This document shows, piece by piece, positions 24,800 to 41,867 of a DNA stretch of 64,000 bases (positions within the stretch are counted from its first letter, which is position 1; each line of letters opens with the position of its first letter). The DNA lies in NCBI GenBank assembly GCA_016845145.1, contig JAERTE010000073.1, forward strand, positions 49,984 through 113,983. Reading direction: 5' to 3'. The DNA comes from Rhodospirillaceae bacterium. GTDB taxonomy: Bacteria; Pseudomonadota; Alphaproteobacteria; Rhodospirillales; Casp-alpha2. Position numbers and translations under genes: made by a program. Below the pieces are notes generated by a model. The model had not been told where the DNA came from, searched no databases, and worked only from the letters and a program-made list of their open reading frames with translations.

Positions 24800-26113
24800 A
24801 TGATTGTTTATATTGTCCACAATATTGATACCGAAGGTCCGCTGGCGGAAAACTGTGTCAAATTTGACGATGATTGCAATTTCAACAACTTCGAGAGTAT
24901 CCGCGCCGATTTTGACAGTGAGGACATAGCAGACATCACGGCAAGGCATCGGGCGCGAACGCTTGCTTCCTGGGCCGAGATTTCCGGCATGCTGCAAAAA
25001 GCGACGTCGGAGAAACAACGGACAACATTACGCGACAGCTTCGGCGGCGGCTGGGTCTTCAACTGGTTTTGTATGGATCATTTGGGTTTCACGGATAATC
25101 CGCGCCAACGCGCCATGGGGATTCACCAAATCTACGATTTCTATGATGATATGGCGAAACGCCAAAATATGGGCGATACTATCCATTGGCATTTTCATCC
25201 CATGAGCACTTACAAAGAAGCCAACAAGTGTGCGACTTCTTACATCAACAGCCCACACTTGTGGGAAATTCTCGGGCGCCGTTTGCTTGATCGTGGTTGG
25301 TTCCCAAAGGCAAACCGCCCCGGCTTCCAGGATGAGCGCCCCGACAGTCACTGGTTTCTGGAACAATGGATACCGTTTGATTTCGGCAACGCAGCTTCTG
25401 GCGACATCGACATGGAACAGAATCCGGACATGACCGACGGACGGTTCAGCGACTGGAGGTGGGCTCCAAAAGATTGGCGAACCTATCATCCCCATCATGA
25501 CTGCCATCAATTGGAAGGGAATTGCCGGCGCAAAATAGCCCGAAGCCTGACCCTTCTGAGCCGTTTTGCAAACCTGACCGAGGGCGAGCTCGAACTGGGT
25601 TTCAAACGTGCAGCATCGGGGCAGCCGACGATGGTTGCCGTCGAGAGCCACGATTGGCGCGATCTCAACCTTGAAATGGATTATTTTAGATCACTTTTGG
25701 CGCGGGTTTCGGCAAAGTACCCTGACGTGAAATTCAGATTTTCAGACTCGGTGACAGCTTTTAATGCCGTTCACCCGGCCCCTGCCGCTGACAATGTGCA
25801 GCTGTCCTGTAACCTGCTTTTCGGCAAGGATGGCCTCCCTCAAAGGGTCAATGTAGAGGTTCCGTGCGGGAAAATTTTCGGGCCGCAGCCGTTTTTCGTC
25901 GTGCGCACGAGGTCCGGAAGAATAATTCACGACAACATGAAATACTGGCGTTCCCTGCAGGATTTCAATTACGTTTTTGATGATGAAAGCGTTCATCCGT
26001 CAGATGTCAAATCCATCGGCATTGCAACAAACGATTCCGCCGGAAATCAAAGCATCCACACGATTGAAATTGATGATCATTTAAATGGCGGCGCCGCCGC
26101 CGTCTCGTTTTAG
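24800..26113 (+). CDS. Polysaccharide-deacetylase-like protein
   Basis: A 437-residue protein with a likely NodB-like (beta/alpha)7 fold: the first strand ends in HNIDTEG (residues 7-13, candidate metal Asp), and HWHFHP near residue 133 would give the metal-binding His pair. YHPHHDCHQ near residue 230 and VAVESHDWRD near residue 280 are further polar motifs. The last 100 residues look like a separate beta domain. Catalysis is inferred; the match to known deacetylases is partial. GTGGAAG precedes the ATG. The GNAT gene follows after 20 bases, suggesting removal and replacement of a sugar N-acyl group. Confidence 0.55.
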   Translation: MIVYIVHNIDTEGPLAENCVKFDDDCNFNNFESIRADFDSEDIADITARHRARTLASWAEISGMLQKATSEKQRTTLRDSFGGGWVFNWFCMDHLGFTDNPRQRAMGIHQIYDFYDDMAKRQNMGDTIHWHFHPMSTYKEANKCATSYINSPHLWEILGRRLLDRGWFPKANRPGFQDERPDSHWFLEQWIPFDFGNAASGDIDMEQNPDMTDGRFSDWRWAPKDWRTYHPHHDCHQLEGNCRRKIARSLTLLSRFANLTEGELELGFKRAASGQPTMVAVESHDWRDLNLEMDYFRSLLARVSAKYPDVKFRFSDSVTAFNAVHPAPAADNVQLSCNLLFGKDGLPQRVNVEVPCGKIFGPQPFFVVRTRSGRIIHDNMKYWRSLQDFNYVFDDESVHPSDVKSIGIATNDSAGNQSIHTIEIDDHLNGGAAAVSF

Positions 26114-26133
26114 TCCGCGTTTCAGGAAACACT

Positions 26134-27213
26134 ATGGATATTCGCAACGTAACCGCAGACGACCTGCCATCGCTTGATCTGTTTGCCGAGCGCATTCAGG
26201 CGACCAGGTCTCTAAATTTCACCGAGGATTTCTTCAATTGGCAGTTTGAGGAGTCCGCTGCGATTGCCAACGCTGGCGACAACGGGTTTCTAATCGGAAT
26301 GGAAGGCGACAAAATCGTCTCCTATCTTGCGGCCAATAAAATGGTTGTGTGGTACGAGGGCCAAAGAATTGAAGGTGCCTGGAACCACGAATGGTATTCC
26401 GACCCGGAAGCCGCCGGTGGCGGATTGTTTTTAATGCGTCAGCAAATTTCCCGGAATCAGTTTCTCGGTATCTCGGGACCAAGCGCGCAATCGATCAACG
26501 TCTTCTCCCGGCTTCGACCGACAACTTGGATTGAATTGGAACGGCTGTTTGCCGTCGTCGATGTCGAAAGCACGCAAGACTTGATGGCCATTTCCAATGA
26601 GGATGTTACCCGGTTGTTGTCCGGCTTTAAGATCGCATCCCCCAAAGCGGGAGTGACATTGCATGAGCTGAGCGAATTCGACGACGAATATGATCGTGTG
26701 TGGCAAAGCTTTCAAAAGAATGTGTCTCTGTGTGCTGATCGCTCGAGCGCATTCATGCAATGGCGCTATTGCGATCACCCAAAAATCAAATATCGCGTCG
26801 TGCGGACTTCGGGGCAGGCGGGAACAGCCTATTTCGTGTGGCGAGAGGAGCAAGTCAAGAACCGATCTGAAATCGTCGCACGGCTTTGCGAGGTTATCGG
26901 CACGCCCGAGGCCGTGGCGGCCGGGTTCCCCCTCGTCTGGGCCGAGTGGAAAAAGGCTAATGTCGCTTTCGGTGATTTTTTCAACTGCCACGCACCGACC
27001 CTTTCGGGATTGATAGTGGCGGGAATGAGCCCGGCCATGATCCTCGATGACTTTGACCTACCCAGGCTTTTTTCTCCGCTCGCAACCGACCCGCGAAAAC
27101 GCCTGGGTTTTCCGTTTTCCCTTACCCGTGAACTTGGTGCGCTTGCACCCGGGCGCCATCCCTTCATCTATATCACCAAAGGTGATGGCAACCAGGATTG
27201 GCCAAGCTCATGA
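26134..27213 (+). CDS. GNAT-like N-acyltransferase
   Basis: A 359-residue protein that begins like a GNAT domain (DIRNVTADDLPSLDLF). It has two alpha/beta halves, which suggests a tandem GNAT or FemAB-like fold. The tail (YITKGDGNQDWPS) is typical of a group of GNAT proteins encoded in polysaccharide loci. It could transfer an acyl or aminoacyl group from a carrier (CoA or the nearby carrier protein) to an amino sugar. The gene lies between the deacetylase-like gene (20 bases) and asnB (27 bases) in one orientation, so one transcript is likely. Confidence 0.6.
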   Translation: MDIRNVTADDLPSLDLFAERIQATRSLNFTEDFFNWQFEESAAIANAGDNGFLIGMEGDKIVSYLAANKMVVWYEGQRIEGAWNHEWYSDPEAAGGGLFLMRQQISRNQFLGISGPSAQSINVFSRLRPTTWIELERLFAVVDVESTQDLMAISNEDVTRLLSGFKIASPKAGVTLHELSEFDDEYDRVWQSFQKNVSLCADRSSAFMQWRYCDHPKIKYRVVRTSGQAGTAYFVWREEQVKNRSEIVARLCEVIGTPEAVAAGFPLVWAEWKKANVAFGDFFNCHAPTLSGLIVAGMSPAMILDDFDLPRLFSPLATDPRKRLGFPFSLTRELGALAPGRHPFIYITKGDGNQDWPSS

Positions 27214-27240
27214 CACTGATAGTCCCGGATTGATCGCGTT

Positions 27241-29226
27241 ATGTGTGGCATTGCCGGTTTTTTAAACAACCCGACTGCAGACTCCGTTTCGACGTTGGGC
27301 GATATGCTGACTCTGATCGCCCACCGCGGGCCGGATGCCGCCGGTGGTTTTGTCGATAACACAGCGGCCATTGGCAGCGTTAGGCTTAGCATTGTCGATA
27401 TCGAGGGCGGCTCGCAACCCGCTGTCAATGAAACACGCGATGTCGCCGTAGTCTTCAATGGCGAGATCTTTAACTACCTTGAGCTTCGCTCCCGTCTCGT
27501 CGAGCAGGGCGTCCACTTCAAGACCCGCTCGGAAGTCGAACTAATTCTCCAGTTGTATCTTTTGCAAGACAAAGCGGTTTTTGAAAGTCTGGAAGGGCAG
27601 TTTGCGATCGCCATTTGGGATGCAAGGATAGACCGATTGCTGCTGGCACGGGATCGTGTGGGCATACGCCCCTTATTCTGGAGCCAGGTGAATGGCACAT
27701 TCGCTTTTGCATCCGAAATAAAATCGTTTCTCGCACTACCAGGATTTGAGCACCGTCTCGACAAAAAGGCTTTGCTGCAAACGCTCAAGTTCTGGACCGT
27801 CGTCGGCAACCGGTCGGCGTTTGAAGGCGTTCAGCAAATTCCACCAGGGCATTTCTTAAGCGTCGAAAACAACGGCGCTCAGCTTTCGCGCTATTGGGAC
27901 AACCTTTCCCCGTTTATGGCCGAGCCCCTCAAGCTGAATTCCGATGAAGAATATGTCGACCTTTTCAGGGAGACCCTGATTGATTCAATCGACCGACAGT
28001 GCATGTCCGAGGTTGAAGTCGGGAGCTACCTTTCGGGCGGCCTCGATTCAACCGTGATCGCCACCGGACTCGGCAAAATTTTGGGCCACAAGGGCCTACG
28101 CACATATTCCGTCGAATTTGAAGATGCCGAATACGATGAATCTGAAGCCCAGCGGCAAGTCGTGGAAAAAAATTCTTTCCAACATACATCGGTTCGAATT
28201 CAAGACGGGGATATTGCCTCGGTTTTTCCTTCCGTCGTCTACCATGCGGAAACGCCGATTTTCCGTTCGGCCCCGGCGCCGTTGTTCCATCTTTCGTCGA
28301 AAGTACATGACGATGGCATCAAAGTCGTGCAAACCGGCGAGGGTGCCGATGAAATCCTTCTCGGCTATGATTTGTTTAGGGAAGTGGCGATTCGCCGGTT
28401 TTGGTCAAGGCAGCCCGATTCCAATTGGCGCGGGCACCTGATGAGGCGCTTGTACGCCTATTTGCCGCAATACAGGAATCCGAGGTATTTTAATCTGATT
28501 CTAGATTTTTATCGCAGCACCCTGCAGGACAGTTCCCCGCATTACGCCATGGCCGTTAGGTGGAATAATGCTGACGCTTTTTCTCTCTATCTACACCCGG
28601 ATATGCAAAATCTGGCCAATACCTATGACCCCGTCGCCGATCTCGATTCCTGGCTTCCGAAACGCTACGAGGACGGAGACGACATCATGCGCGCCCAGAT
28701 CATCGAGATGCAAACCCTACTCGCCAATTACCTACTTTCCAGCCAGGGCGACAGAATGTCCATGGCTCATAGTGTCGAAGGGCGATACCCGTATCTCGAT
28801 GAGAAATTCATGGCCCTGTCGGGACGGCTTCCCAGATCTCTGAAGCTACGCGGCCTCAAGGATAAATTCATCTTGAGAGAGGCCTTTTCCGATGTCGTTC
28901 CCGAGACAATCCGACGGCGCCCGAAAATTGCCTACCAAGCACCGGATATAAGTGGTTTTGTCACGGATGGAAAATTCCCGGATTATGTGGAAGACTTAAT
29001 GTCGCCTTCGCGAATTAATAGCGTCGGGATATTTGATATTGAGCAAGTCCAACGATTGATGCAAAAAGCAAAAAATTACAATCTTTCCCGTGTTGGCTAC
29101 CGCGACAATATGGCATTCATAATTGTTCTCTCGACAATGCTGCTTGATGATCTGTACGTCCGTGGCAATGCAAGATCCGATATGATTATCAACAATAAAC
29201 TGCACTTAAATGTCATCAGAGGCTGA
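27241..29226 (+). CDS. asnB: Asparagine synthase (glutamine-hydrolysing) homologue
   Basis: A 661-residue AsnB-type amidotransferase. Cys2 in MCGIAGF is the glutaminase nucleophile, and NGEIFNY near residue 77 belongs to the same Ntn domain. YLSGGLDST near residue 263 is the PP-loop for ATP. In O-antigen loci such enzymes commonly amidate hexuronic acids to uronamides rather than make free asparagine. The neighbours (carrier protein and a second AsnB-like gene) instead suggest an amide-forming step on a carrier-bound acid. Both readings are inference. The carrier-protein gene follows directly. Confidence 0.85.
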   Translation: MCGIAGFLNNPTADSVSTLGDMLTLIAHRGPDAAGGFVDNTAAIGSVRLSIVDIEGGSQPAVNETRDVAVVFNGEIFNYLELRSRLVEQGVHFKTRSEVELILQLYLLQDKAVFESLEGQFAIAIWDARIDRLLLARDRVGIRPLFWSQVNGTFAFASEIKSFLALPGFEHRLDKKALLQTLKFWTVVGNRSAFEGVQQIPPGHFLSVENNGAQLSRYWDNLSPFMAEPLKLNSDEEYVDLFRETLIDSIDRQCMSEVEVGSYLSGGLDSTVIATGLGKILGHKGLRTYSVEFEDAEYDESEAQRQVVEKNSFQHTSVRIQDGDIASVFPSVVYHAETPIFRSAPAPLFHLSSKVHDDGIKVVQTGEGADEILLGYDLFREVAIRRFWSRQPDSNWRGHLMRRLYAYLPQYRNPRYFNLILDFYRSTLQDSSPHYAMAVRWNNADAFSLYLHPDMQNLANTYDPVADLDSWLPKRYEDGDDIMRAQIIEMQTLLANYLLSSQGDRMSMAHSVEGRYPYLDEKFMALSGRLPRSLKLRGLKDKFILREAFSDVVPETIRRRPKIAYQAPDISGFVTDGKFPDYVEDLMSPSRINSVGIFDIEQVQRLMQKAKNYNLSRVGYRDNMAFIIVLSTMLLDDLYVRGNARSDMIINNKLHLNVIRG

Positions 29227-29233
29227 ACCAGAA

Positions 29234-29485
29234 ATGAACGATATTCTAGGTGTGTTGTGTGCTTATGTTACTGAAAACTATGCCACCACATACACCGTCG
29301 ACACCCTTCCAAAAGAAAAATCTCTCATTGAATTGGGCATTTTGGATTCATTTGGAATAATTGAATTGATTTCCTTCATCGAAGAGAATTGGTCTATTTC
29401 AATTGAAGACGATGCAATAACAAAAGAGAATTTTGGCTCGATCAACGCCATGGTGAACTTCGTGAAACGTAAGACGAACGCCTGA
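29234..29485 (+). CDS. Acyl/peptidyl carrier protein
   Basis: An 83-residue carrier protein. Ser39 in the ELGILDSFGIIEL segment is the 4'-phosphopantetheine site, and the acidic helix 2 around it is typical. It lies between asnB (7 bases) and the AsnB-like gene (40 bases), so those enzymes may use a substrate tethered to it. An in-frame ATG at 29210 overlaps asnB; ATG 29234 gives the usual family length and is preferred. It is distinct from the carrier protein at 35.7 kb, which has a WDS motif. Confidence 0.85.
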   Translation: MNDILGVLCAYVTENYATTYTVDTLPKEKSLIELGILDSFGIIELISFIEENWSISIEDDAITKENFGSINAMVNFVKRKTNA

Positions 29486-29525
29486 CTTTCCGCTACAATT
29501 GCAAACGAGCTGTTCGGTCAAATCA

Positions 29526-30842
29526 ATGCAAGTCCTCGACCTCAGAGACGTACCCAACATTCATTTCGACCCCTTAAATGAAAATGATCTGGTCGACGAT
29601 ATCGTTCAAAGGGGGGCTGTGCCGGCAGGTCAGTACGGCCTTTTGATTCACGGTTCCGATCACGTTGATTTGGTCCGGGACAAAATAGGCTGCAACAAAC
29701 TTTTTTTCGGATTCAACCCAATCGGTACGCTGGTCGTCGGCAACCGGATTAACACGTTGATTCGCGAGGGCGTAACCATAGACCATGTTCAATCGTGCCT
29801 GCCTGGCCATGCCGTGCGCGTCAGAGACAAAAGTGACATTTCTGTATTGGGTGGCGTTGATATATCCATGACGCCAGAAGATCCGGATTGGGATATCGAT
29901 AAGTTTAAAGCTGACGTATCGGGTAAATTGCGCACCTTGTTCGGACGGCTCGCGGAAGATTACCCGGACGCCAAATTTGTCGTCTGTTTGTCTGGCGGCT
30001 TGGATAGTTCGGTGATCGCCTCTTTCGCTACGCAGTTCTTACCCAACGTGACGGCCGTCAGTTTTTCTTATACCGATCCCGAAAGTATCTGCGGTGACAT
30101 CAAGGGCGAGGTCGATAAATCAAACGGCCGCGGGCTGTCGGAAGATTTTGTATCCGCATGCAACGTCGCCGACCTGCTCGGTATTCCCCTGGTGCCTATC
30201 CTTCGCCCCTACGATGCCGTCGTCGGCGCTATCAAAGACAGCATCTTGCTTGGCCAGGATTGGCGTGACTTCAATGTCCATTGCGCCGTCGTCAATTTGT
30301 TTCTGGCACAATCGATCCGGGCCTTGTATCCGGAGAAAGATGTTGTCGTTCTGACCGGCGATTTAATGAACGAATATGTCTGTGATTACCGCTCAGAAGA
30401 AATAGACGGTACTGCGTACTACCAGCAGCCACGCATCAGTCTGGCGCGCCGGCGCCGCTTTTTCGTCAGGGGGCTGGACGCCGGAGACCGCGAAATCGGG
30501 GTTTTCTCCGCCTTCCGGCTCAAGGTCGTGCAGCCTTTTTCCGTCGTCGCCAAAAACTATATGGAGGTTCCCGCTTCTTTACTTGAAGACGAGGAAATCA
30601 AGTACACGCTAAACGGCCATCTTTTGAATGATCAAATTCACGACGCCATCAACAAAAGCAAGACGCGCGCGCAAGTCGGCGGTAAAGACAAGGGAACGCT
30701 CGGCGCTTTTCATCGATTGGGAATCAATCAGAAAGACCTTGAAGGATATTGGTCACGGATGTTTTCCAATGATGGGGACAACCCAACCGACATAATCCAG
30801 TTCGGTCGCTACAGGCACCCGGCCTCTACATCGCCATCATAG
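29526..30842 (+). CDS. AsnB-like amide synthetase lacking the glutaminase cysteine
   Basis: A 438-residue member of the asparagine-synthase group. The PP-loop CLSGGLDSS (about residue 155) is intact, and the preceding domain keeps an Ntn-like outline (KLFFGFNPIGTLVVGNRINTL). It starts MQVLDL and lacks the Cys2 needed to hydrolyse glutamine. Known members with this loss, such as beta-lactam synthetase, use an amine other than glutamine-derived ammonia. Next to a carrier protein it may form an amide from an adenylated acid. The ATG at 29526 is chosen over an upstream TTG. Its 3' end overlaps the convergent KAS III-like gene by 34 bases. Confidence 0.72.
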   Translation: MQVLDLRDVPNIHFDPLNENDLVDDIVQRGAVPAGQYGLLIHGSDHVDLVRDKIGCNKLFFGFNPIGTLVVGNRINTLIREGVTIDHVQSCLPGHAVRVRDKSDISVLGGVDISMTPEDPDWDIDKFKADVSGKLRTLFGRLAEDYPDAKFVVCLSGGLDSSVIASFATQFLPNVTAVSFSYTDPESICGDIKGEVDKSNGRGLSEDFVSACNVADLLGIPLVPILRPYDAVVGAIKDSILLGQDWRDFNVHCAVVNLFLAQSIRALYPEKDVVVLTGDLMNEYVCDYRSEEIDGTAYYQQPRISLARRRRFFVRGLDAGDREIGVFSAFRLKVVQPFSVVAKNYMEVPASLLEDEEIKYTLNGHLLNDQIHDAINKSKTRAQVGGKDKGTLGAFHRLGINQKDLEGYWSRMFSNDGDNPTDIIQFGRYRHPASTSPS

Positions 30843-31840
30843 CGCAGCAAAAGCCCGCCCCATTGCGCCGTAAAAGCGGGGGTCATGACGATATACCGGG
30901 CGTCATGCTGCGGCGGGTTGTCTTTCAGATACTGGTCAAGAAAAAACATCACGTCGACGCCCCCCATATGGGCATAGCGGAAATCTGATCTAACCTTTTC
31001 GCTGAACGCCTTGTGCCGGCCCAGTAAATGGGGAACTCGATTGGCCCCGATGGAAGGCAAAAGCAAGGCGTCAAGGTCGTCCTGATCAAGGCCTTCGGCA
31101 TCCAGGAGGGTATCGATCAGACCACCGCATCTCGATTGTTCGCCAACGACATAGTCCATCTGTGCCCGATCATCGGCAAAGTCGACGACGACTTTCAGGT
31201 CGTCGGCAGGGTCACAGCTGGCATGCGGGCGGGCGTCGCCGTGGCGCAGGCGCATGGCGCCCCAGTCCTGCTCCGAGTTTTTTTCACCGTAGGCCGCGAC
31301 CCGCAAGCCCGCACCCGGTGTCCTGGTCAGAACCGCCGCCGCAGCAGCATCAGCCCAAAAGAAGGCACCGTGGGTAAGGTTTTCCATCAGGGTCGATGCC
31401 TTGCACGCGGTGACGACCAGGACATCGCCGCGCCCTTCGTTGGTCGCCAGATACTGGTCGGCAAGACGCATGGCGGCAAGAAACCCGACGCAACCCTGCG
31501 CCACATTAAGACATTCCGCGTTTTCCAAACCCAGGGCCACCCGAATGGCGATAGCAGGAATTTCAAACCCGTAGGAGGTCGATAGTGTTGGGGCCGATAT
31601 GATCAGGCCAATGTCGCGGGCTTCCATGCCGGCGCTTTGCAACGCCTTGCGTGCGGCAACAATGGACATCTCGGTCGAGTTTTCATCCGACCTGAAAGTA
31701 AACTTCTGCCCGATGCCCGACAGCTTCTCGCGCATGTCGTCGGTCATGTCGATGTCGGCCAGGGGAATCGGCTCACCGGGGAGTTGGAATTCTAGACTGC
31801 GCAATCGAACGTCACACTTGGTCGCTACGGTTGAGGGCAT
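30809..31840 (-). CDS. KAS III-like (FabH-type) acyl-transfer protein with altered catalytic triad
   Basis: A 343-residue thiolase-fold protein. Cys117 in LNVAQGCVGF sits where FabH has its nucleophile. The FabH His (in HQAN) appears replaced: the matching segment reads SIGAN near residue 265. The FabH Asn (in GNTS) appears replaced by His (YAHMGGVD). Such changes occur in KAS III relatives that transfer acyl groups without condensation, so an acyltransferase using an acyl-carrier substrate is likely. The alignment is by eye. It is last in the minus-strand run, 12 bases behind the amino acid:carrier ligase gene. Confidence 0.75.
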   Translation of the reverse strand: MPSTVATKCDVRLRSLEFQLPGEPIPLADIDMTDDMREKLSGIGQKFTFRSDENSTEMSIVAARKALQSAGMEARDIGLIISAPTLSTSYGFEIPAIAIRVALGLENAECLNVAQGCVGFLAAMRLADQYLATNEGRGDVLVVTACKASTLMENLTHGAFFWADAAAAAVLTRTPGAGLRVAAYGEKNSEQDWGAMRLRHGDARPHASCDPADDLKVVVDFADDRAQMDYVVGEQSRCGGLIDTLLDAEGLDQDDLDALLLPSIGANRVPHLLGRHKAFSEKVRSDFRYAHMGGVDVMFFLDQYLKDNPPQHDARYIVMTPAFTAQWGGLLLRYDGDVEAGCL

Positions 31841-31852
31841 AATGCTCGATCT

Positions 31853-33103
31853 TTATATCTCGGGAGGACCATCAAACGAGGCGCTGTCTGGTGAATGCCA
31901 TTTTGCCGCGGCCGCCTGCACATGTTTCCGAACCGCGTCCGGCCACTGGGCCGAGTCGGGTCCATGCTGGGCAATGAACGCGAAGGCCAGCCGTTCACAG
32001 CCAAACCCCACGCACCCTGTTTCCGCCGGCGCCCCATCGGGCAGCAAAATATCCAAGCTCCGTCCGAAAAAATCACGGTGGCGATTATAGGATCCCGCCG
32101 CCAGGGTATCATTCTTATACGGCAAGGACATCCGGACCTCAAACTTCAACTCGAAGGCGCTTTGGTAGGCGGCCTGATCCCTGTAGCTTCCGATAAAAAA
32201 CGGATCGTTGGCAGTTTCAATCAGGTAGGATAGATCCATTTCATCGAGAATCTCATTCAGGGCAACCTGCGCCCGGTCCAATCCATCCTGAACGAAATCA
32301 GCGGTTCCGACAAAAATGATCTCCCGCATGGAGAAATTCCACAGGCGTTCGAGCGACACCATGTTGGAGGACTCATAACGGAAACAGTTTCCAAAAGCCG
32401 TCGCGACAATACCGTCTTCCGGCACCACCGAATTGGCCAGCGCCATGTAAAGGTGGTGACAAACCGTTGGTGACAGCATCGCCTGCACCTTAGCGAAGGC
32501 ATCATTGTCCGTATGAATGCATCCGTCATGTGTATGCGCTTCTTCGGAAAACTTGGCGATAACGTCCAGATCTTCTCGAAGGTGCGTCACGAATGACAGG
32601 GAATGAGGGAAGTTGTCGAAGTATTTGACTTTCTCCAAATAGGCCGGAGAAATCAACGCCGGGAATCGATAGGGCCGGGCACCCATATCGACGGCCACAG
32701 CATGGTAGCGATCTTCGAAATAATCGAGCAGCCCGGCCATCAGAGGTCCGAGCGAAAAATAACCATGTCCTTCGACGACAACTTCCCGGCTTGAGGCCAG
32801 GGCCACCATCGGGTCCTTGTCGTACTTGACTGGGCGGTCGGTTTTATCCAGCACGACCCGCAGGTGCGGCTCGAAGGCACCCTTGACCAAGGAAGAGACA
32901 ACCAGATTAACCTGTTCGATCAAGTGCGCCGCCTTGGCATCATCAGGCTTTTCGGTGAGCCGCAGGGTGATGCCTTCAAGGCCGTTCAGGACTTCCGACC
33001 CAGTGACTGTATCATCCACATAGGCCAACTTGGTGCGAATTTCCTTGGTTAGAAAACCCGGGATTTCCATTTCGGGAATGACATGAATAGATGCGTTCGA
33101 CAT
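31853..33103 (-). CDS. Amino acid:[carrier protein] ligase (class II aminoacyl-tRNA-synthetase-like)
   Basis: Predicted to activate an amino acid with ATP and load it on a carrier protein, as the seryl-tRNA-synthetase-like ligases of Bradyrhizobium do. Class II motif 2 is FRYES (residues 241-245) and motif 3 is GCVGFGCERLAF (about 363-374). Cys215, Glu261 and Cys364 have the spacing of the zinc site known in that family. No tRNA-binding domain is present. At 416 residues it has about 100 N-terminal residues more than I recall for characterised members. It lies in one run with a carrier protein, an MBOAT and an SGNH protein. The amino acid (Gly or Ala in known members) cannot be read from sequence. 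Confidence 0.82.
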   Translation of the reverse strand: MSNASIHVIPEMEIPGFLTKEIRTKLAYVDDTVTGSEVLNGLEGITLRLTEKPDDAKAAHLIEQVNLVVSSLVKGAFEPHLRVVLDKTDRPVKYDKDPMVALASSREVVVEGHGYFSLGPLMAGLLDYFEDRYHAVAVDMGARPYRFPALISPAYLEKVKYFDNFPHSLSFVTHLREDLDVIAKFSEEAHTHDGCIHTDNDAFAKVQAMLSPTVCHHLYMALANSVVPEDGIVATAFGNCFRYESSNMVSLERLWNFSMREIIFVGTADFVQDGLDRAQVALNEILDEMDLSYLIETANDPFFIGSYRDQAAYQSAFELKFEVRMSLPYKNDTLAAGSYNRHRDFFGRSLDILLPDGAPAETGCVGFGCERLAFAFIAQHGPDSAQWPDAVRKHVQAAAAKWHSPDSASFDGPPEI

Positions 33104-33134
33104 AGCTTAAACCCAATGCGGTTAAGGTTCCGTA

Positions 33135-34349
33135 TTATGACCAGAAAATCTTAAGTGATCTAACCACTTCCACGAATGTATTGTTAAGAAAAAGGAAAGT
33201 CGCACAGGTGAAATTAAAACAAACTGCGATGGCGAGCCATTGCAGCCCCCGGCTCGCTTCAATGGTTTTATAGCGATCCCGACCGACTCTGCGCTTTAGC
33301 CAACGACCGAACCCGGCGGATATAACGACACCGCTCCCCTGCAGCAGACCAAAGACGACAAAATTGGAAGTCGTCCCGTGCCACGCGCCGACCAGATAAA
33401 ACGTAACCAGCACAGTGATCGCCATCATCAGGCCGTCCAGACGGGCCGGTGCCCGCTTGATCAAAAAGGCGCTCATGGGCGTGAATACGTAATGCCGGAT
33501 CCAGATCCCGAAGGACATATGCCAGCGCGTCCAGAAATCAGCAGGGTTTCGTGCCAGGTAGGGCCGATTGAAGTTCTCCGGTAATGTGGTGAACCCACAC
33601 AGGCGAGCCGCGCCGACAACGATATCCACATAACCGGAGAAATTCAGATAGAGGTAGATCGGATACCCGTACAGAACGATCAGGAAGTCAATCCCGTCTG
33701 CCCCTGTGACGGCCAGATTGGTTATGGCCGAGGGTGCCAGAAAAATCGGGGCAACAACGAAGGCCTTCAACAGGCCATTGACAATCCGATGCGCTGCCTT
33801 GCGAATGTCAACATGTTCGGGTCGGCCGATTTGGTCTAGTCCGGCGCAAAAACTGTCGTAACGCTGGATTGGGCCGGCAATCAGTGTCCAGGGCGACACC
33901 GTAAAGGCCAGGTACCGCAAAAAACTGAAGGGCAAGTGCGTCAGATAGGGGGCATCGACAACCAGATGGATTTGCCGAAACAGAATATAGGAGACCCCAA
34001 TCAGCGTTACCGGATATCCGAGGTCGCCCAGAACGTCGAAGCTGCTGTAACGCTTGACGACGAGAAAAAGAAGGATCTGCCATGCCAGGACAATCCAGAT
34101 GATGTTGCCACCCCCGGTTTCCTTGCGGCCCCACAACACCCTGACCACCAAAAACGGTCCGGCCAGGAAGACCAAAAGGGCGATAAGATCGAGCGGCCTC
34201 AACCATGTGGCCAGCATCAGAGTTGCCGCCAGGGCCAGTCCTTGAAGAAACCGCGCCCGCCACGGAGACCATGCGAGCAACACCAGGCATCCGGCCAGGG
34301 CCAGAAAGCCGACGGTATTGGGTGTCATGTTATGAACGCCGTCGATCAT
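33135..34349 (-). CDS. MBOAT-family O-acyltransferase (DltB-like)
   Basis: A 404-residue polytopic protein with about 10-12 membrane segments. The conserved MBOAT block is NFNRPYLARNPADFWTRWHMSF with IRHYVFTPM (about residues 258-290). The catalytic His is in GAWHG (about residue 324). This is the DltB/AlgI/PatA pattern: an acyl or aminoacyl group is taken from a carrier on the cytoplasmic side and passed across the membrane. The ATG at 34349 overlaps the SGNH stop as ATGA, and 31 bases separate its end from the ligase gene. The acyl group is inferred to be an amino acid from that neighbour. Confidence 0.88.
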   Translation of the reverse strand: MIDGVHNMTPNTVGFLALAGCLVLLAWSPWRARFLQGLALAATLMLATWLRPLDLIALLVFLAGPFLVVRVLWGRKETGGGNIIWIVLAWQILLFLVVKRYSSFDVLGDLGYPVTLIGVSYILFRQIHLVVDAPYLTHLPFSFLRYLAFTVSPWTLIAGPIQRYDSFCAGLDQIGRPEHVDIRKAAHRIVNGLLKAFVVAPIFLAPSAITNLAVTGADGIDFLIVLYGYPIYLYLNFSGYVDIVVGAARLCGFTTLPENFNRPYLARNPADFWTRWHMSFGIWIRHYVFTPMSAFLIKRAPARLDGLMMAITVLVTFYLVGAWHGTTSNFVVFGLLQGSGVVISAGFGRWLKRRVGRDRYKTIEASRGLQWLAIAVCFNFTCATFLFLNNTFVEVVRSLKIFWS

Positions 34350-35536
34350 AGATCGGGATCCAGGCCAAGTTTTCTGGGCAACCATGCAGCGATTTCCTCG
34401 GCGACAATTCTGTGCGCCGTGGCATTCATATGCCCGTCATCGGGAAAGGACAGAAACTTGTCGCTTGCCATCAGGGCTGGTGCCGTGTCCAGAACCGTTA
34501 TTCCCCTGGCGGTCAGGCCCCTGAGTAAAAGCCGGTACGGGCGGGACGCATCCAGTTCGCCTTGCTTGAATCCCAAGTGTCGTTCGTAGCGGGCAAAGCT
34601 TGCTCCATCCAGTTGGTGATGACTGGGAATCAGGACGACACCAAAGGGCACCCCCAATGTGCTGTCGATCCAGTCCTTGAGAGCAACGGTAAAATCCACC
34701 GTTGAATGGATCACATTGTCCTCGGGTGTCTTTGTCAGATTTCGAAGAACATCCGGAGGCGCTGAATCTTTCAGGGCGACATCTTCCCGAAGCCCGGCCT
34801 TGAGCGCCCACTTGCGGAACATGGGAACGCCGTTGATGCCGACCTTCAGCCAGCAATAGATCGCGCTATTGTTGATCAGTCGACCCTTTATTCCAATCTT
34901 GCTGACCTCAAATGATTCGAGCAACTTGCCGAGTTGGCTCTTTAACTGAGCGGTGGCCGTGCTGGCCGGTTTGGCGGGCGCATTCAGCTCTGGAATCTTC
35001 AACGGCTGCTTCATATCGGCGATGGCTTCGTCGTATCGGCCGAGCACATTGTTCAGAGTCATTTCAAAAACAATCGCCCGCGGCCGATATCCCTGGGATG
35101 TCAAATGACGAACGACCTTGACTTGGTTGCCCAGCCTGTGCCCTTCGGAACTGAAATTAGCGATCTTGTATCCCATGTCCTGAAGCACCGAAGGGAATGC
35201 TTCGTGATCCTCGACGAATCCGCCATAGGCGTTGGAGGCCCCGGCGGCCCAAATTCCGGCGAGATCTTCTTCGAAACCTTCCTCCCGGTCACGGAAGCCC
35301 AACGAATTGGTGCGGTTGATGACATCGTAGTTCGGAGGATTGAGTCGGCGGACCTCAAGATTGGGCTTCTGAAAGGTGTCGTATATCGGGTGATGAACGA
35401 AAGTCGCCTGGGAGACGGCCTTCCAATCCGGAAAGACCGCAATTCGGAAAACAACCTCCGCCAGAGCAACGCCGACAACCACGGCGATGATAGCCGGAAT
35501 AAGCCTTCCAAAGGGTTTTGGAGGCGTTCGATCCAT
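34346..35536 (-). CDS. Membrane-anchored SGNH-hydrolase-like protein (DltD/AlgX-like role)
   Basis: A 396-residue protein with an N-terminal anchor (about residues 12-33) and a periplasmic SGNH-type domain. The nucleophile is probably Ser101 in WAAGASNAYGG, an Asn lies in FEMTLNN near residue 160, and Asp366-x-x-His369 (PDDGHMN) is the C-terminal pair. Such partners of MBOATs move the group from the MBOAT to the glycan. It starts 3 bases after the small DltX-like gene (ATG 35536; a TTG just before it is possible) and overlaps the MBOAT gene. Confidence 0.8.
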   Translation of the reverse strand: MDRTPPKPFGRLIPAIIAVVVGVALAEVVFRIAVFPDWKAVSQATFVHHPIYDTFQKPNLEVRRLNPPNYDVINRTNSLGFRDREEGFEEDLAGIWAAGASNAYGGFVEDHEAFPSVLQDMGYKIANFSSEGHRLGNQVKVVRHLTSQGYRPRAIVFEMTLNNVLGRYDEAIADMKQPLKIPELNAPAKPASTATAQLKSQLGKLLESFEVSKIGIKGRLINNSAIYCWLKVGINGVPMFRKWALKAGLREDVALKDSAPPDVLRNLTKTPEDNVIHSTVDFTVALKDWIDSTLGVPFGVVLIPSHHQLDGASFARYERHLGFKQGELDASRPYRLLLRGLTARGITVLDTAPALMASDKFLSFPDDGHMNATAHRIVAEEIAAWLPRKLGLDPDL

Positions 35537-35539
35537 CAA

Positions 35540-35659
35540 TTAAAACTGCTGATAGGCAACCACGACGACTTCCACCGAATTCAGCGAAAGCAGAAGGAAT
35601 ATACCCGCCTTCACGGCCAGCCAGGCCCAGGAAGCTCTGTCTCTCACGGCATCATTCAT
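35540..35659 (-). CDS. 39-residue single-pass membrane peptide, DltX-like
   Basis: A small gene overlooked by length cut-offs. ATG at 35659 overlaps the carrier-protein stop as ATGA, and the gene ends in TAA 3 bases before the SGNH start, so it is tightly packed. The peptide has a polar N-terminus, one hydrophobic segment (about residues 12-35) and the C-terminus VVAYQQF. DltX peptides of Gram-positive dlt operons are about 50 residues with one membrane span and end in a conserved aromatic motif with Tyr-x-x-Phe, whose Tyr relays the acyl group. Tyr36 would take that role here. Coding status is inferred from packing and motif. Confidence 0.68.
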   Translation of the reverse strand: MNDAVRDRASWAWLAVKAGIFLLLSLNSVEVVVVAYQQF

Positions 35660-35904
35660 TGATTGCCGATCTTTTCCGCAACCAAATCCGCAAGTTGTCC
35701 GATATTTTCGAATTGGGCAATCTCAGGCGTTGCGAACTTGACCCCGAAGGCCTGCTCCACACCAAGAACGATCCGAATATGGCTAAAGCTGTCCCATTCC
35801 TCTACATCACTTGCCGTCATTTCGGGCTTGGCTTCGACGGTTTCGTTATCCAGAACATCCTGTAGAACGGTGCTTATTTTCGCGTAAATTTCTGTCGTTT
35901 CCAA
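35656..35904 (-). CDS. Acyl/aminoacyl carrier protein of the Dlt-like unit
   Basis: An 82-residue carrier protein. Ser39 in EEWDSFSHIRIV is the 4'-phosphopantetheine site, followed by the acidic helix and the AFGVKF turn typical of stand-alone carriers beside MBOATs. The best start is TTG 35904 with GGGA 5 bases before it. The open frame reaches 36057, but those extra residues overlap the upstream radical SAM gene and look unlike a carrier protein. It overlaps the DltX-like gene by 4 bases. It is the probable acceptor for the ligase at 31.9-33.1 kb (DltC role). Confidence 0.85.
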   Translation of the reverse strand: METTEIYAKISTVLQDVLDNETVEAKPEMTASDVEEWDSFSHIRIVLGVEQAFGVKFATPEIAQFENIGQLADLVAEKIGNQ

Positions 35905-35986
35905 TGCAATCCCAATTAACAAATTAGCCAAAATGTGGTCAAAAACTAACAGAGTTAATACTGCCGGACAAGCGTCGAACTCGGCC

Positions 35987-37513
35987 TCAGGATTTCGCCT
36001 TTTCGAGCCGTTTCCACCGCAGCCTTGTATAGATTCGATCAACGAACCATTTAGCATAACGGGTATCTTCCTGCCCGGTCAGAATCCCCTTCATGAGTGT
36101 GCTGAAGGTTCTGATCGGGTGCAGCGCAAACGAGATCAAGTAAAAGTTATAGAACATATAAATCATCCACCAATAGAGCGTGCGCGAGCTCATGGCATCG
36201 CAATAGCTATCTGCATCCTTGATGTAGAAATCCATTGGTGAGTGAAAGAAGTCGTTATCGAGGGATATCTTGCCCGTTTTTTGAAGCTTGTGGAAAAGGT
36301 CAGAGCCCGGATAAGGCACAAACTTGGTCACGGCGACGTCCCAAAGGCCAATCATCGCCAGACGGCGGATTAGTTTAAGCGTCTTACGTAAAGTCTCCGG
36401 CGTGTCGTCTGGAAAGCCGATAACGAAGAAACAGGAAACCTTCATGCCGTGCTTCATGGCGATTTGCGCGCTGGCGACCAGTTTATCCAGATCCACCTTC
36501 TTTTTGACGGATTCGAGGATTTCCGGGGCGCCGCTTTCCGGGGCAAACGCCAGAGCGCGGCAGCCCGACCGATAGAGCAACTCGGCAACTTCGTCGTCGA
36601 ACACTTCCGAGCGGGTGCCGCTTGGCATCTGCCAAGTAATATTCAATCCGCGATCGATAATTTCATTGCAAAAACTGATCGCCCATTTGCGATTGACGAT
36701 GGCGGTCAGGTCCTGAAAGTCAAAGTTGGTGACGTTATAGGTCGTCATGTAGCTTTGCATTTCGTCGACTACCAGCTTGGGGTCACGGGTGATGTAGCGG
36801 GTCGTCCACATTTGTTCGTTGGAGCAAAACGTGCAGCGATAGGGGCAGCCACGGGTCGAAATAACAGGCATCGAGCGTCCGATGTTAACCCCGTTGCTCT
36901 GATGTCGCGCGATGTATTCTTCCAGGGGGATTAGATCCCAAGCCGGCCAGGGCAATTCATCTATGGAGCGCCGGCGTGTCGACAGTCCGGTGTTGACATA
37001 TTCTTCGCCGTCGAGGAAGGCGACACCCATGACATCATGCCACGCAGCCCGGTCGGCCCGCGCCTTGAGCAAGGCGAGCAGGGTGTCCTCTCCTTCGCCC
37101 ATAACCAGAATATCGATACTCGAATTTCGGCAAACATACTCCGGCACCGCTGTAGCGTGTTCCCCGCCACCAATAATCAGCGTATCGGGATAAGCCTCTC
37201 GCAATCTGTCGACAATAATATTGGTCAGCGGCCACTGGCTGGAAAACATGCACGACACGCACAATACTTCCGTTTCCTTCGGGACCTGCTCGATGATTTC
37301 CTCTGGCGAGAGGCCCTGAATCATGAAATCCGACCGGCCGGGATAAACGGAGATATTGTCCAACGCCTCGCCAACGCCGTCGACGATGCAAACATCGTAT
37401 CCGGCCTCGCGGGCCACGGCCGCGATATAGGCCAACCCGATCGGCGGATTGGGAGTGTGCATTTGGAGGCCGGAAAAACTCTTGAGCCCCGGCGTGTTAA
37501 TGAAGGTAATCAT
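35987..37513 (-). CDS. B12-binding-domain radical SAM protein
   Basis: A 508-residue enzyme. Residues about 1-150 form a cobalamin-binding-type domain (GLAYIAAVAREAGYDV, IIGGGEHATAVPE). The radical SAM core follows with CPYRCTFC (C-x3-C-x2-C) near residue 222. The C-terminal 100 residues have hydrophobic stretches that may lie at the membrane (WWMIYMFYNFYLISF). B12 radical SAM proteins methylate unreactive carbon or phosphorus or rearrange skeletons. The target here is unknown. It is upstream of and in line with the Dlt-like unit (82 bases to the carrier start), so it may be co-transcribed. Similar to the gene at 50.1 kb. Confidence 0.8.
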   Translation of the reverse strand: MITFINTPGLKSFSGLQMHTPNPPIGLAYIAAVAREAGYDVCIVDGVGEALDNISVYPGRSDFMIQGLSPEEIIEQVPKETEVLCVSCMFSSQWPLTNIIVDRLREAYPDTLIIGGGEHATAVPEYVCRNSSIDILVMGEGEDTLLALLKARADRAAWHDVMGVAFLDGEEYVNTGLSTRRRSIDELPWPAWDLIPLEEYIARHQSNGVNIGRSMPVISTRGCPYRCTFCSNEQMWTTRYITRDPKLVVDEMQSYMTTYNVTNFDFQDLTAIVNRKWAISFCNEIIDRGLNITWQMPSGTRSEVFDDEVAELLYRSGCRALAFAPESGAPEILESVKKKVDLDKLVASAQIAMKHGMKVSCFFVIGFPDDTPETLRKTLKLIRRLAMIGLWDVAVTKFVPYPGSDLFHKLQKTGKISLDNDFFHSPMDFYIKDADSYCDAMSSRTLYWWMIYMFYNFYLISFALHPIRTFSTLMKGILTGQEDTRYAKWFVDRIYTRLRWKRLEKAKS

Positions 37514-37549
37514 GTTGTTATGGCTGGCCCTGAATCATAGTTCGCTCAA

Positions 37550-39670
37550 TCAGCTATCCCATTTATGAGATGGGGTGTAGCGGCATTGAATTGAAGTCGT
37601 TTTTTTGGGGACCAACACGCCAATGAAAATATGGTCGATAGGAAACGTCGCCAATGTATTGGCCTTCGTCATGCAGCTCCAGTCCGGGGTATAGTTTTGA
37701 CCGACGACCAAAATGCCGTCGCCGGACAGTTCTGTCGATAATTCAATCCTGTCAGCTTCGTATTTTGTCACCTTAACTTTCCCCGATGACAGAGACTTAA
37801 GGCTTTCTAATTGGGAAGGCAAGAGATCTCGCTCGACATATCCCGTAGTCCGCAGGTTCGGCAGATCGGCCGCCGCCAGGGCATCCAGAGACTTTGCCTT
37901 CCCGTCAAACCGCTCAAGTCGTTGAACGAAAAAGGCGCGTGGCAAGGCTTCTGCATTTTCATAGAGATAGAGATGAGTCCTACCTGTGAAGTTACCTTTC
38001 AGATTGGACAGGATTTTCTCCCGGGTACTCATTCCGGCCCACGGACGGCTTGCCTGATGGATCTCGTGCCACCCCGAAGCGACAACGGGATCCCGACTGA
38101 CAAAGTATTTTACGTTTGCCAAACTCAACAGCGGCATCCGGTAGAGATCATCCAACGGCCATGGGCTGGTGTCCGGTCTCTTGACGGGGTTGAGGAATAT
38201 GCGATCAATATCCAGCGCCCCCTTCTGAGGTGGCCCACCGCTGTTGCGTCGCAAAACCTTACCCCAGAATTCTGCAAACCGTTTGGTGTGAAAGACCTGA
38301 TAGCCGCCAATCGTTTCGATTCCATAGGCGTGTAAATAATTGGGGTACATTTCAAACGAGGCCGCCCGATAAGGCTGATCCTGGTTCTCGATCCGCTCGG
38401 CAAGAGATTGCAGAACCGGGCTTTCAAACAGAAATTTATAGCTGCCCTGACTCACCCAATCCATCGCGCTTGAGTATTTTTGCGGCAGCGAAAGCACCAA
38501 CAGGCCGCCAACCAGAATCAAGGGTGCGCGCCGGGCAACAACTACCGTCGTATTTCCCTTGGCGCCGGGGTGCTTTTTCTCAAGATAGGTCAATAGCGCA
38601 GGCCACACCATACTAAGCCCTATGGTTCCGCCCAAGGCTATGAACACCCAAAGATAAATAGCCAGACGGCCAAGATTGAATGATTGAAGGAGGCTGATGT
38701 GATCAATCAGCACCGGTTTGACAATCGGCAGAAGAACAACAGCTCCCATGGCTAACCCGGTCGCAACTAGCAGTTTTATTAGGTATTTTCCGCCGATTAA
38801 GTCTTCCCCATCGGCCTTCCTGGGGAAGAACATGATGGCGAGCCCGGAAAACAGGAATGCTGCCATCAAAGCCGCATTCCATGGCGCCAGATAGTGCTGA
38901 ATTACCACCTCAAACAGGTCGTCGCGCATTCGTTCCTGTCCGTAGGTGATGTATCGCTGGGACAGCAAGGCAAAATTCTTGACGGCGACCACCTCCTGCA
39001 GTCGGGGCACGACGGATAGCACCGATCCGAAACCGATCACGGCCCAGTCTGCAACTGATTTACGAGGCCGGACAATAGCGAACCACAGCGCTAGAATAAT
39101 CAACATAAACGGCTGAATTCGGGACAAATAGACGATGCACCCGTAATAAAGTATGGCCAGAACAAACAAGGCCCAGGCGAGGCCTTTTCGCTTATTGTCG
39201 AGTACATATTCAGTCGCCAGAATAACCATCGGCAACAACACGACCGCCGCGGCGACCCAGTGGTTCGGGTGCTGATTGTAGAAAAAAATGAACGCCCCGG
39301 CGGCAGCGGCCCAGTGGGGAATGTCCAGCGTGCGTCGCGCCAGAAAATAGAACCCCACTATAGCTACGGTCGCGACGGAAACCCAGTGGATAGCATAGGC
39401 CACCCAACCTGGCAGAAATCCGAACAATAACCTGTCGAGCACATTGGTGAAAGCCAGGGCCGCTCGGTCCGTCCCCAGGGTCGAATAAGGGTGCCAAAGG
39501 CTGCTTTGCCAGCCTTCGAGCGTACTTGCGATGAGAGCTGGGATAAACAACTCGCCGCCATCGCCGGCCGAGGTAAAGGCGAATTTACCGAGCAACAAAA
39601 CCTCGGCGGTGAACCAGATGACGATAAGGGCAAGAAGGCGGACAGGACGACCAAGAACGAAAGAAATCAT
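37550..39670 (-). CDS. Large polytopic membrane protein (YfhO/GT-C-like)
   Basis: A 706-residue protein with about 11-13 membrane segments in residues 1-410 and a soluble, probably periplasmic C-terminal domain of about 290 residues. An acidic loop after the first segment (TSAGDGGELF, about residues 34-43) could hold the catalytic Asp/Glu of GT-C enzymes, which use lipid-phosphate sugars. YfhO-like proteins share this size and layout. It is divergent from gmd across 189 bases and lies 36 bases ahead of the radical SAM gene in the same direction. The donor and acceptor are unknown. Confidence 0.65.
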   Translation of the reverse strand: MISFVLGRPVRLLALIVIWFTAEVLLLGKFAFTSAGDGGELFIPALIASTLEGWQSSLWHPYSTLGTDRAALAFTNVLDRLLFGFLPGWVAYAIHWVSVATVAIVGFYFLARRTLDIPHWAAAAGAFIFFYNQHPNHWVAAAVVLLPMVILATEYVLDNKRKGLAWALFVLAILYYGCIVYLSRIQPFMLIILALWFAIVRPRKSVADWAVIGFGSVLSVVPRLQEVVAVKNFALLSQRYITYGQERMRDDLFEVVIQHYLAPWNAALMAAFLFSGLAIMFFPRKADGEDLIGGKYLIKLLVATGLAMGAVVLLPIVKPVLIDHISLLQSFNLGRLAIYLWVFIALGGTIGLSMVWPALLTYLEKKHPGAKGNTTVVVARRAPLILVGGLLVLSLPQKYSSAMDWVSQGSYKFLFESPVLQSLAERIENQDQPYRAASFEMYPNYLHAYGIETIGGYQVFHTKRFAEFWGKVLRRNSGGPPQKGALDIDRIFLNPVKRPDTSPWPLDDLYRMPLLSLANVKYFVSRDPVVASGWHEIHQASRPWAGMSTREKILSNLKGNFTGRTHLYLYENAEALPRAFFVQRLERFDGKAKSLDALAAADLPNLRTTGYVERDLLPSQLESLKSLSSGKVKVTKYEADRIELSTELSGDGILVVGQNYTPDWSCMTKANTLATFPIDHIFIGVLVPKKTTSIQCRYTPSHKWDS

Positions 39671-39859
39671 GTTTTTGATTTAGCGGTCAATTTCGTGGCC
39701 AAACACGCTTCGAAGCCAATCCCCGGGCGGGAGAGAACTTGCTAAAATACTGCCCACTGGGCTAAGTGATGTTTAGGTGTCAAGTTCGCGATACAATGGA
39801 TAGTCAACCCGCGAAGCATATGTTAAGAGAACACCGTCGTCAACGAGACAGGAATTGCT

Positions 39860-40942
39860 TTGGTGAGTCGAAACATAGCTTTAATAACGGGCGTTACAGG
39901 CCAGGATGGTGCCCTATTGGCAAAATTTTTGCTGGACAAAGACTACGATGTCCACGGCATCAAACGCCGCTCTTCTTCCTTCAATTCGGCCCGGGTGGAT
40001 TCCCTGTATACCGATCCTCACGAGCAAAATGTCCGCTTCAATCTACATTATGGGGACATGACGGATTCGACCAATCTGATCCGCCTGCTGCAGGAAATTC
40101 AGCCGACGGAAATTTATAATCTTGCCGCCCAAAGCCATGTCAAGGTGAGCTTCGAGACCCCCGAGTACACGGCCAATGCCGATGCCCTGGGCCCGCTGCG
40201 TTTACTTGAGGCCATTCGCATCCTCGGCATTCAGGACCAGGCTCGGTTTTACCAAGCCTCGACATCAGAATTGTTCGGCCTCGTTCAGGAAGTTCCGCAG
40301 ACAGAGGCGACGGCTTTTTACCCGCGCAGTCCCTATGCCGTCGCCAAGCTATACGGCTACTGGATCACCATCAACTATCGGGAGGCCTATGGTTTTCACG
40401 CTTCGAACGGCATTTTGTTCAATCACGAAAGCTCCGTTCGGGGAGAAACCTTCGTAACCCGCAAGATCACGCGCGCCGTCGCGGCCATGGAACAGGGACA
40501 TGACAACAAGCTTTACCTGGGCAACCTGGATGCCAAGCGTGACTGGGGACATGCTGTCGATTTCGTTGAAGGTATGTGGCTGATGATGCAGCAGGAAGAA
40601 CCCGACGATTATGTCATGGCCACGGGTGTCGTCCATTCCGTCCGGGACTTCGTCGAAAAGTCGTTCAATGTGGTTGGGCGGGCCATCGAATGGCGCGGCG
40701 AAGGAGAGGATGAACAGGGCCTGGACGCCAAAACTGGTGAGGTCTTGATAAAAATCGACCCACGATACTACCGACCAACAGAGGTCGACTTCCTTCAGGG
40801 AGACGCCTCGAAAGCCAAAAAAGTATTGGGCTGGGAGCCGAAAATAACGTTCGAAGAAATGGTCGAAGAGATGGTCCTGCATGACATTAATCAAATGAAA
40901 CAGGGACTGGATCATGTCCGAGAGTCGTACGACACCGTTTGA
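39860..40942 (+). CDS. gmd: GDP-mannose 4,6-dehydratase
   Basis: Converts GDP-D-mannose to GDP-4-keto-6-deoxymannose, the precursor of GDP-L-fucose and related sugars. The 360-residue SDR has [11 protein letters not shown] (residues 10-20), the NADP loop [25 protein letters not shown] near residue 88, STSELFG near 137 and YAVAKLYG with the Tyr-Lys pair near 160. AGGA lies 7 bases before TTG 39860; a GTG follows at once, so the start is one or the other. It overlaps fcl by 29 bases. No strong promoter is visible in the 189 bases upstream. Confidence 0.95.
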
Positions 40943-41867
40943 TCTGACCGGCAAAAAAATCTGGGTTGCCGGCCACAAAGGAATGGTGGGCAGCGCATTG
41001 GTGCGCCGCCTCGCCTCGGAAAACTGTGAAATTCTCACCTGTGATCGGCAAACAGTCGATCTTGCCTGCCAGACAGACGTCAACGCCTGGTTATCGCACA
41101 ACGCACCGGACGCCATCATCATGGCCGCCGCCAAGGTTGGTGGAATTCACGCTAACTCCACCTATCCAGCCGATTTCCTCTATCAGAACCTGATTATCGA
41201 GGCCAATGTCATCCACGGCGCCTATCAGACAGGGGTGGCAAAGTTGTTGTTTTTGGGCTCGTCATGCATCTATCCCCGCATGGCCGATCAGCCAATGACC
41301 GAAAGCGCCCTTTTGACCGGTCCGCTGGAACCAACCAACCAGTGGTACGCGGTGGCAAAGATCGCCGGTATTAAATTGTGTGAAGCCTATCGCAAACAAT
41401 ATGGGTGTAACTTTATTTCAGCCATGCCGACCAACCTATTTGGCCCCGGTGACCACTACGATCTGGAAAACTCCCATGTCCCCGCCGCAACCATCGCCAA
41501 ATGCCATCTGGCCAAGGTGTCCAACGACAAAACCATGACGGTGTGGGGCTCCGGCACGCCCCTGCGTGAATTCATGAGCGTCGATGATCTGGCCGATGCC
41601 CTGGTCTTTCTTTTGCAGAACTATTCCGACGAAAGCTTCATCAACGTCGGGTCCGGAAAAGAAATATCGATTAAGGACTTCGTTGAAACCGTCGCGGCTG
41701 TCGTCGGTTTTGAAGGGAACTTTGTTTTTGATACGTCCCGGCCCGATGGCATGCCCCGTAAGATGATGGATTCAACTGTACTGAATAATCTTGGCTGGCG
41801 CCCCAGAGTTGGGCTAGAGGAAGGCCTCAAACAGGCGTACGCCTGGTACCTGGAGAATGCCGCATGA
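40914..41867 (+). CDS. fcl: GDP-L-fucose synthase (3,5-epimerase/4-reductase)
   Basis: Epimerises and reduces the Gmd product to GDP-L-fucose. The 317-residue SDR has the cofactor motif [11 protein letters not shown] (about residues 19-29) and [10 protein letters not shown] near residue 80. FLGSSCIYP near residue 118 carries the Ser and Cys that act in epimerisation, and the Tyr-Lys pair is in WYAVAKIAG near 145. GPGDHYD near 182 belongs to the substrate site. It directly follows gmd and overlaps the methyltransferase-GT2 fusion gene as ATGA, so GDP-fucose is probably used by that unit. Confidence 0.95.

Follow-up and report, generated by a model that had tools for sequence, protein, structure and literature searches.

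A candidate Dlt-like surface aminoacylation cassette with a class II tRNA-synthetase-like ligase in the place of DltA

Described systems and the layout of the locus

In Gram-positive bacteria Dlt-type aminoacylation governs surface charge and resistance to cationic peptides, and the activating enzyme encoded in their dlt operons, DltA, is an NRPS-type protein. For the microprotein DltX, a 2023 study in Nat Chem Biol reportedly published the C-terminal motif FxYxxF. The dlt operon (DltXABCD, D-alanylation of teichoic acids) is the closest described system to the locus presented here, both combining a carrier protein, a DltB-like MBOAT, a separate microprotein with a C-terminal Tyr and an SGNH protein in one cluster. 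The Bordetella dra locus is likewise said to have a dlt-like gene content. According to the portion of PMC4448142 available it adds D-alanine to the surface, and in the available portion of PMC3783018 AlmEFG puts glycine on the LPS of Vibrio cholerae by means of a DltA-homologous activator and an LPLAT-type transferase; both place an amino acid on a Gram-negative surface, as proposed for our locus, AlmEFG by a carrier route. A sequence-only reading of the same DNA had known of no described Gram-negative system working this way, a view that these two precedents, as far as the excerpts go, take back in part, the activating enzyme standing as new. Searches of an open-licence library yielded no report of a synthetase-like ligase together with an MBOAT or DltX. 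Other MBOAT-SGNH systems (PatAB, AlgI-type) have an MBOAT, an SGNH protein and the Tyr shuttle logic in common with our locus; as described in the available part of PMC12148441, they use acyl-CoA as donor, carry the motif on the MBOAT and have neither carrier nor microprotein.

In the window (the whole stretch analysed, 64,000 nt of Rhodospirillaceae contig JAERTE010000073.1) the ORFs for a carrier, a membrane peptide, an SGNH protein, an MBOAT and a ligase are packed together on the minus strand (Table 1), the microprotein gene overlapping the carrier gene by 4 bp and TTG being the start chosen for the carrier ORF. These coordinates bear out the earlier claim of five tightly packed minus-strand genes. 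All five are present, but the unit as first described was incomplete and lacked a sixth ORF for a KAS-III-like protein, 12 bp downstream of the ligase gene. The cassette differs from dlt in several respects: its activator is class II synthetase-like and not DltA, the point at which membership fails; the added KAS-III-like gene has no place in Dlt; SGNH protein and carrier are not DltD and DltC by sequence models; the C-terminal hexapeptide reads VAYQQF; and the acceptor is presumably other than teichoic acid. The surroundings are polysaccharide-like, with genes for a GDP-mannose dehydratase, further epimerases, a ManC-type protein, GT2 enzymes, methyltransferases and asparagine synthases.

Table 1. 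Genes of the cassette, with window positions and the basis of each assignment
Feature	Coordinates	Strand	Basis
Carrier protein (DltC role), 82 aa	35656..35904	-	PP-binding and acyl carrier models, WDSFSH site
Membrane microprotein (DltX role), 39 aa	35540..35659	-	C-terminus VAYQQF; Tyr36 codon 35552-35554
SGNH acyltransferase (DltD role; predicted)	34346..35539	-	PF00657, conservation, structure model and fold
DltB-type MBOAT without fused shuttle motif	33135..34385	-	PF03062, TIGR04091, PDB matches
Class II synthetase-like amino acid:carrier protein ligase (DltA's place)	31853..33103	-	NF005479, 3mey alignment
KAS-III-like protein	30809..31840	-	Profile matches, alignment with the genome's own FabH

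Proteins of the cassette

The best family of the window ligase in the profile search is amino acid:ACP ligase (NF005479); as it reaches 166.4 of the 357 bits of this curated equivalog and hence stays below the cut-off, we regard it as a distinct subfamily. Cys215, Glu261 and Cys364, which we take to be zinc ligands on a SerRS-like core, had been singled out by their spacing in the sequence-only reading, and they do align to the Cys/Glu/Cys site of 3mey and are invariant in 30 aligned relatives (30 of the 120 listed). Catalytic core, Cys/Glu/Cys site and a nearby carrier gene are shared with the amino acid:[carrier protein] ligases of the Bradyrhizobium Bll0957 type, from which the window ligase differs by a longer N-terminus and by the adjoining MBOAT-SGNH export set. 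Gly or Ala is reportedly a substrate of Bll0957. A rhizobial short-form ligase (L109) has acyl-CoA dehydrogenase and DUF1839 genes as neighbors. In a ligase tree built from 34 of 81 ligases and two of five intended outgroups, the pairing with MBOAT may have arisen once or more than once.

The carrier scores 20.6 bits with PP-binding (cut-off 20.8) and also matches acyl carrier models; DltC models gave no match to it at E <= 0.01. Ser39 in WDSFSH is the predicted pantetheine attachment point, and the WDS site is common to the window carrier and those of the loci L002 (a Rhodospirillaceae MAG), L044 (Sphingopyxis bauzanensis), L049 and L050 (Acidobacteria) and L053 (Magnetococcales). In the microprotein the YxxF expected of a DltX-role peptide is kept, as claimed earlier, but the first Phe of FxYxxF is replaced by Val, and by Ile in the L002 counterpart, which ends IAYQQF; the full FxYxxF end is found in the Sphingopyxis and Paenibacillus peptides. 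A micropeptide scan covered 82 regions (80 ligase loci, window positions 26001-42000 and an L. curvatus control), using a shuttle-motif pattern that was broadened after the window peptide had been seen. Thirty-three of 10,852 small ORFs end in (F/V/I/L/M/Y/W)xYxxF, and 26 of these lie within 1.5 kb of a same-strand MBOAT, a distance within which the scan holds 614 small ORFs; the 26 include the terminus of the L053 MBOAT itself. The other seven comprise three from Paenibacillus with the MBOAT further off or absent from the locus, the control DltX, and one each in L024, L042 and on the minus strand of L053. The genuine DltX of L. curvatus was thus recovered by the same scan. The ORF in L042 (12964-13125, minus strand) encodes 54 aa ending YIYAMF and precedes a 397-aa protein with no Pfam match and a 376-aa protein with a weak GNAT match; no MBOAT was found in this locus.

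The window MBOAT, the only one in this genome of 5.46 Mb, has DltB as its sole PDB match, reaches 182 of 375 bits with TIGR04091 and aligns His289 and His336 with the histidines of DltB. It branches apart from the three DltB entries in a tree of 17 of the 30 cassette MBOATs and six others. The MBOATs encoded beside this ligase family fall into five separate groups in the tree, and because its backbone is weak and its branches long we claim separate groups and no order of events. The SGNH protein (PF00657, 28.8 bits) has an N-terminal membrane helix and the residues Ser102, Asp367 and His370; fold and catalytic residues are supported by the predicted structure and by conservation among 46 aligned matches of 97. 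DltD is absent among the structure matches listed for this protein, and present among those of the Paenibacillus SGNH-fold partner.

Recurrence in other genomes

A contig scan retained 80 of 161 ligase relatives as loci, which were then tallied with iterated profiles. Of the 80, 75 have a carrier no more than 1.5 kb from the ligase (L042 and L043 assigned by hand); the exceptions are L002, where the carrier heads the cassette further off, L037, L054, L055 and L066. An MBOAT occurs in the fetched stretch of 29 loci and in none of the other 51. AAC(3)-type genes were found in 42 loci, never together with an MBOAT, and nine loci have neither; the presence of this ligase alone therefore does not imply Dlt-like export. 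The 42 AAC(3) loci are all labelled Chloroflexota and hold ligase and carrier, mostly with a GNAT as well (for example L008, 2305-10583), and NeuB is nearby in 30 of the 80 ligase loci. Possibly the AAC(3)-type loci serve cytosolic aminoacylation of nonulosonic-acid-type sugars.

The 29 MBOAT loci are L002, L044, L049-L051, L053 and 23 from Paenibacillus. The C-terminal shuttle motif is present in 26 of them, either carried by a micropeptide or as part of the MBOAT; in the acidobacterial L049-L051, which have MBOAT, carrier and ligase, the micropeptide scan found none. L002 keeps the gene order of the window between carrier and ligase, the KAS gene being divergent, and identities amount to 52% for the carrier, 55% for SGNH, 57% for MBOAT, 58% for the ligase and 70% over 27 aligned residues for the microprotein. 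L044 combines ligase, carrier, GNAT and MBOAT with a 36-aa peptide ending FVYGGF and a 361-aa protein that has GNS and DEGH motifs and no Pfam match. L053 is a hybrid with ligase, carrier and KAS as in the cassette and an MBOAT with fused FIYFQF as in the PatAB and AlgI-type systems. A sister ligase in a Magnetospira MAG (L003, 815-3807, minus strand) is accompanied by a divergent carrier, then a DHQ-synthase-like gene and an O-antigen ligase-type Wzy_C protein; no MBOAT occurs in the 3.5 kb up to the contig end.

In a large protein set we infer that 14 contigs > 5 kb, the window's included, hold both the ligase (best 120 of 1437 matches) and the SGNH protein (97 listed); among 23 ligase entries on contigs of this size 13 are shared with the SGNH list and ten are not. 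The tags ACTSV1_05030 (ligase) and ACTSV1_05040 (SGNH) are spaced as would fit one gene between them. Rare co-occurrence of the five genes, which would have spoken against the earlier reading, is not seen in the close clade (L002 as one collinear locus, and 13 further contigs predicted to carry ligase and SGNH protein), but distant ligases often have other partners. Among plasmid records no further cassette was seen in three non-dlt MBOAT contexts and three DltB controls (of 133) or in one ligase context (of 82). A plasmid of Ligilactobacillus murinus carries a lone dltB (L110, 3609-5017, plus strand) beside a bactofencin-type bacteriocin gene.

The arrangement had been framed as Gram-negative, but it is not confined there and takes its most uniform form in Gram-positive Paenibacillus. 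In one Paenibacillus genus all 30 genomes have ligase and MBOAT as direct neighbors, DltA being found in none of them, and a carrier and a 36-aa peptide ending FIYE(G/K/D)F are present in all 25 Paenibacillus loci. The cut-off of TIGR01734 (DltA) was exceeded in none of 25 cassette genomes, all of which give weaker matches; besides the new set, P. filicis encodes a DltA that falls just short of it (544.9 of 559.85 bits) and has a DltB-like neighbor. An FG-GAP repeat protein precedes the carrier in all 17 Paenibacillus loci resolved by the gene caller (about 1080 aa in L065, 4303-7536, plus strand), eight others being unresolved.

Within the window's own lineage the ligase is an accessory, patchy trait. 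Counting the window's own genome, five of the order's 297 carry it at E <= 1e-30. For the class the figure at E <= 1e-20 is 15 of 385, with at most 167 bits for the remaining 14, and in the family the ligase is present in 1 of 48, the window's own. The window assembly is 7.19% contaminated, so that the contig may be foreign.

Proposed route, alternatives and neighboring genes

Gene content, order, families, conserved catalytic positions and recurrence were observed, and from them we infer the chemistry of every step and which amino acid and acceptor are involved. We favor, with a probability of roughly 0.7, a Dlt-like route of surface aminoacylation in which a class II tRNA-synthetase-like ligase acts as activator instead of NRPS-type DltA. 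That the ligase takes DltA's place in a Dlt-type set, as had been proposed from the window, has strong comparative support in the five MBOAT groups and the DltA-less Paenibacillus genus; support for the pathway is partial. The ligase would form an aminoacyl-AMP, probably of Gly or Ala to judge from Bll0957, and load the pantetheine arm of the carrier. In what is the weakest step, the KAS-III-like protein, whose place is probably held by a GNAT in several related sets, might alter the amino acid on the carrier, for instance by N-acylation. Through the membrane the MBOAT would then transfer the acyl group to Tyr36 in the microprotein, which would pass it to Ser102 of the SGNH protein. The latter would esterify a surface glycan that the neighboring polysaccharide genes probably make. 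Only tentatively do we extend this to ligases recruited as a plug-in replacement of DltA in Proteobacteria, Acidobacteria and Paenibacillus alike, where they would supply an acyl-Tyr shuttle with a separate or MBOAT-fused Tyr peptide, and to a KAS-III-like transacylase yielding an N-acylated aminoacyl ester on the surface in the window's lineage.

The KAS-III-like protein is also the basis of an alternative, which we consider unlikely, in which ligase, carrier and KAS build more than a simple aminoacyl group (on the carrier, either an N-acyl-amino acid or a lengthened acyl chain) for export by MBOAT, peptide and SGNH protein. KAS occurs with ligase and MBOAT in L002 and L053, and since window, L002 and L053 share KAS, ligase and carrier, KAS stays with these though the MBOAT type changes; at 66% identity between window and L002 it is also the best conserved of the full-length proteins. 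Under a loose rule, 47 of the 80 loci have a GNAT in the vicinity of the ligase (L042-L044 assigned by hand), never alongside KAS. KAS and GNAT may each N-acylate the amino acid on the carrier, or the GNAT could instead be a transferase to sugar. This alternative is weakened by the Cys-His-Asn triad of KAS III (FabH), which is not intact: an alignment of three copies with the FabH of the window genome shows the Cys kept in each, with Ser in place of His and His in place of Asn, making decarboxylative condensation unlikely. In the Paenibacillus operons neither KAS nor an adjacent GNAT was seen, apart from an opposite-strand GNAT in L057.

Ordinary O-acetylation from acetyl-CoA by MBOAT and SGNH, with the ligase-carrier pair serving a neighboring pathway, appears improbable to us. 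Acyl-CoA is the donor in most MBOAT-SGNH systems described in the available part of PMC12148441, and the 51 loci without MBOAT would suit a ligase working elsewhere, but the MBOAT is DltB-like and has no fused motif, a microprotein is present, the five genes are collinear in L002, and the adjacency repeats in five MBOAT groups and throughout one genus. We give hardly any credence to a seryl-tRNA synthetase, or a relic of one without a carrier role: the archaeal-type SerRS models and structures that the ligase also matches score lower than the amino acid:ACP ligase family, the SerRS match begins only at model position 173 of 518, and a carrier accompanies the ligase in nearly all loci. An ordinary SerRS was ruled out, as the genome encodes a separate normal one (528 bits).

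If the Dlt-like reading holds, the pathway is modular and a translation-derived enzyme can substitute for the NRPS-type activator, which would assign a role in the cell to one branch of the amino acid:carrier ligases. Cultured DltA-less Paenibacillus species would then be usable as a model. Systems with carrier plus microprotein would also reach beyond dlt, the other MBOAT systems in the available part of PMC12148441 having neither.

A B12 radical-SAM gene (35987-37513) and a DUF6044 membrane gene (37550-39670) on the same strand were left outside the unit; in L002 the divergent KAS gene precedes the carrier. The radical SAM protein is closest to BchE, below its cut-off, and its gene stops roughly 80 bp short of the carrier gene; a second B12-binding radical SAM protein is encoded at 50086-51531 on the plus strand. 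Convergent to the cassette, positions 27241-30842 of the plus strand may hold another carrier-based system: they encode an asparagine synthase, an AsnB-like protein and, at 29210-29485, a further carrier protein, for which cispentacin AmcB is the nearest NCBIfam model (43 of 80 bits).
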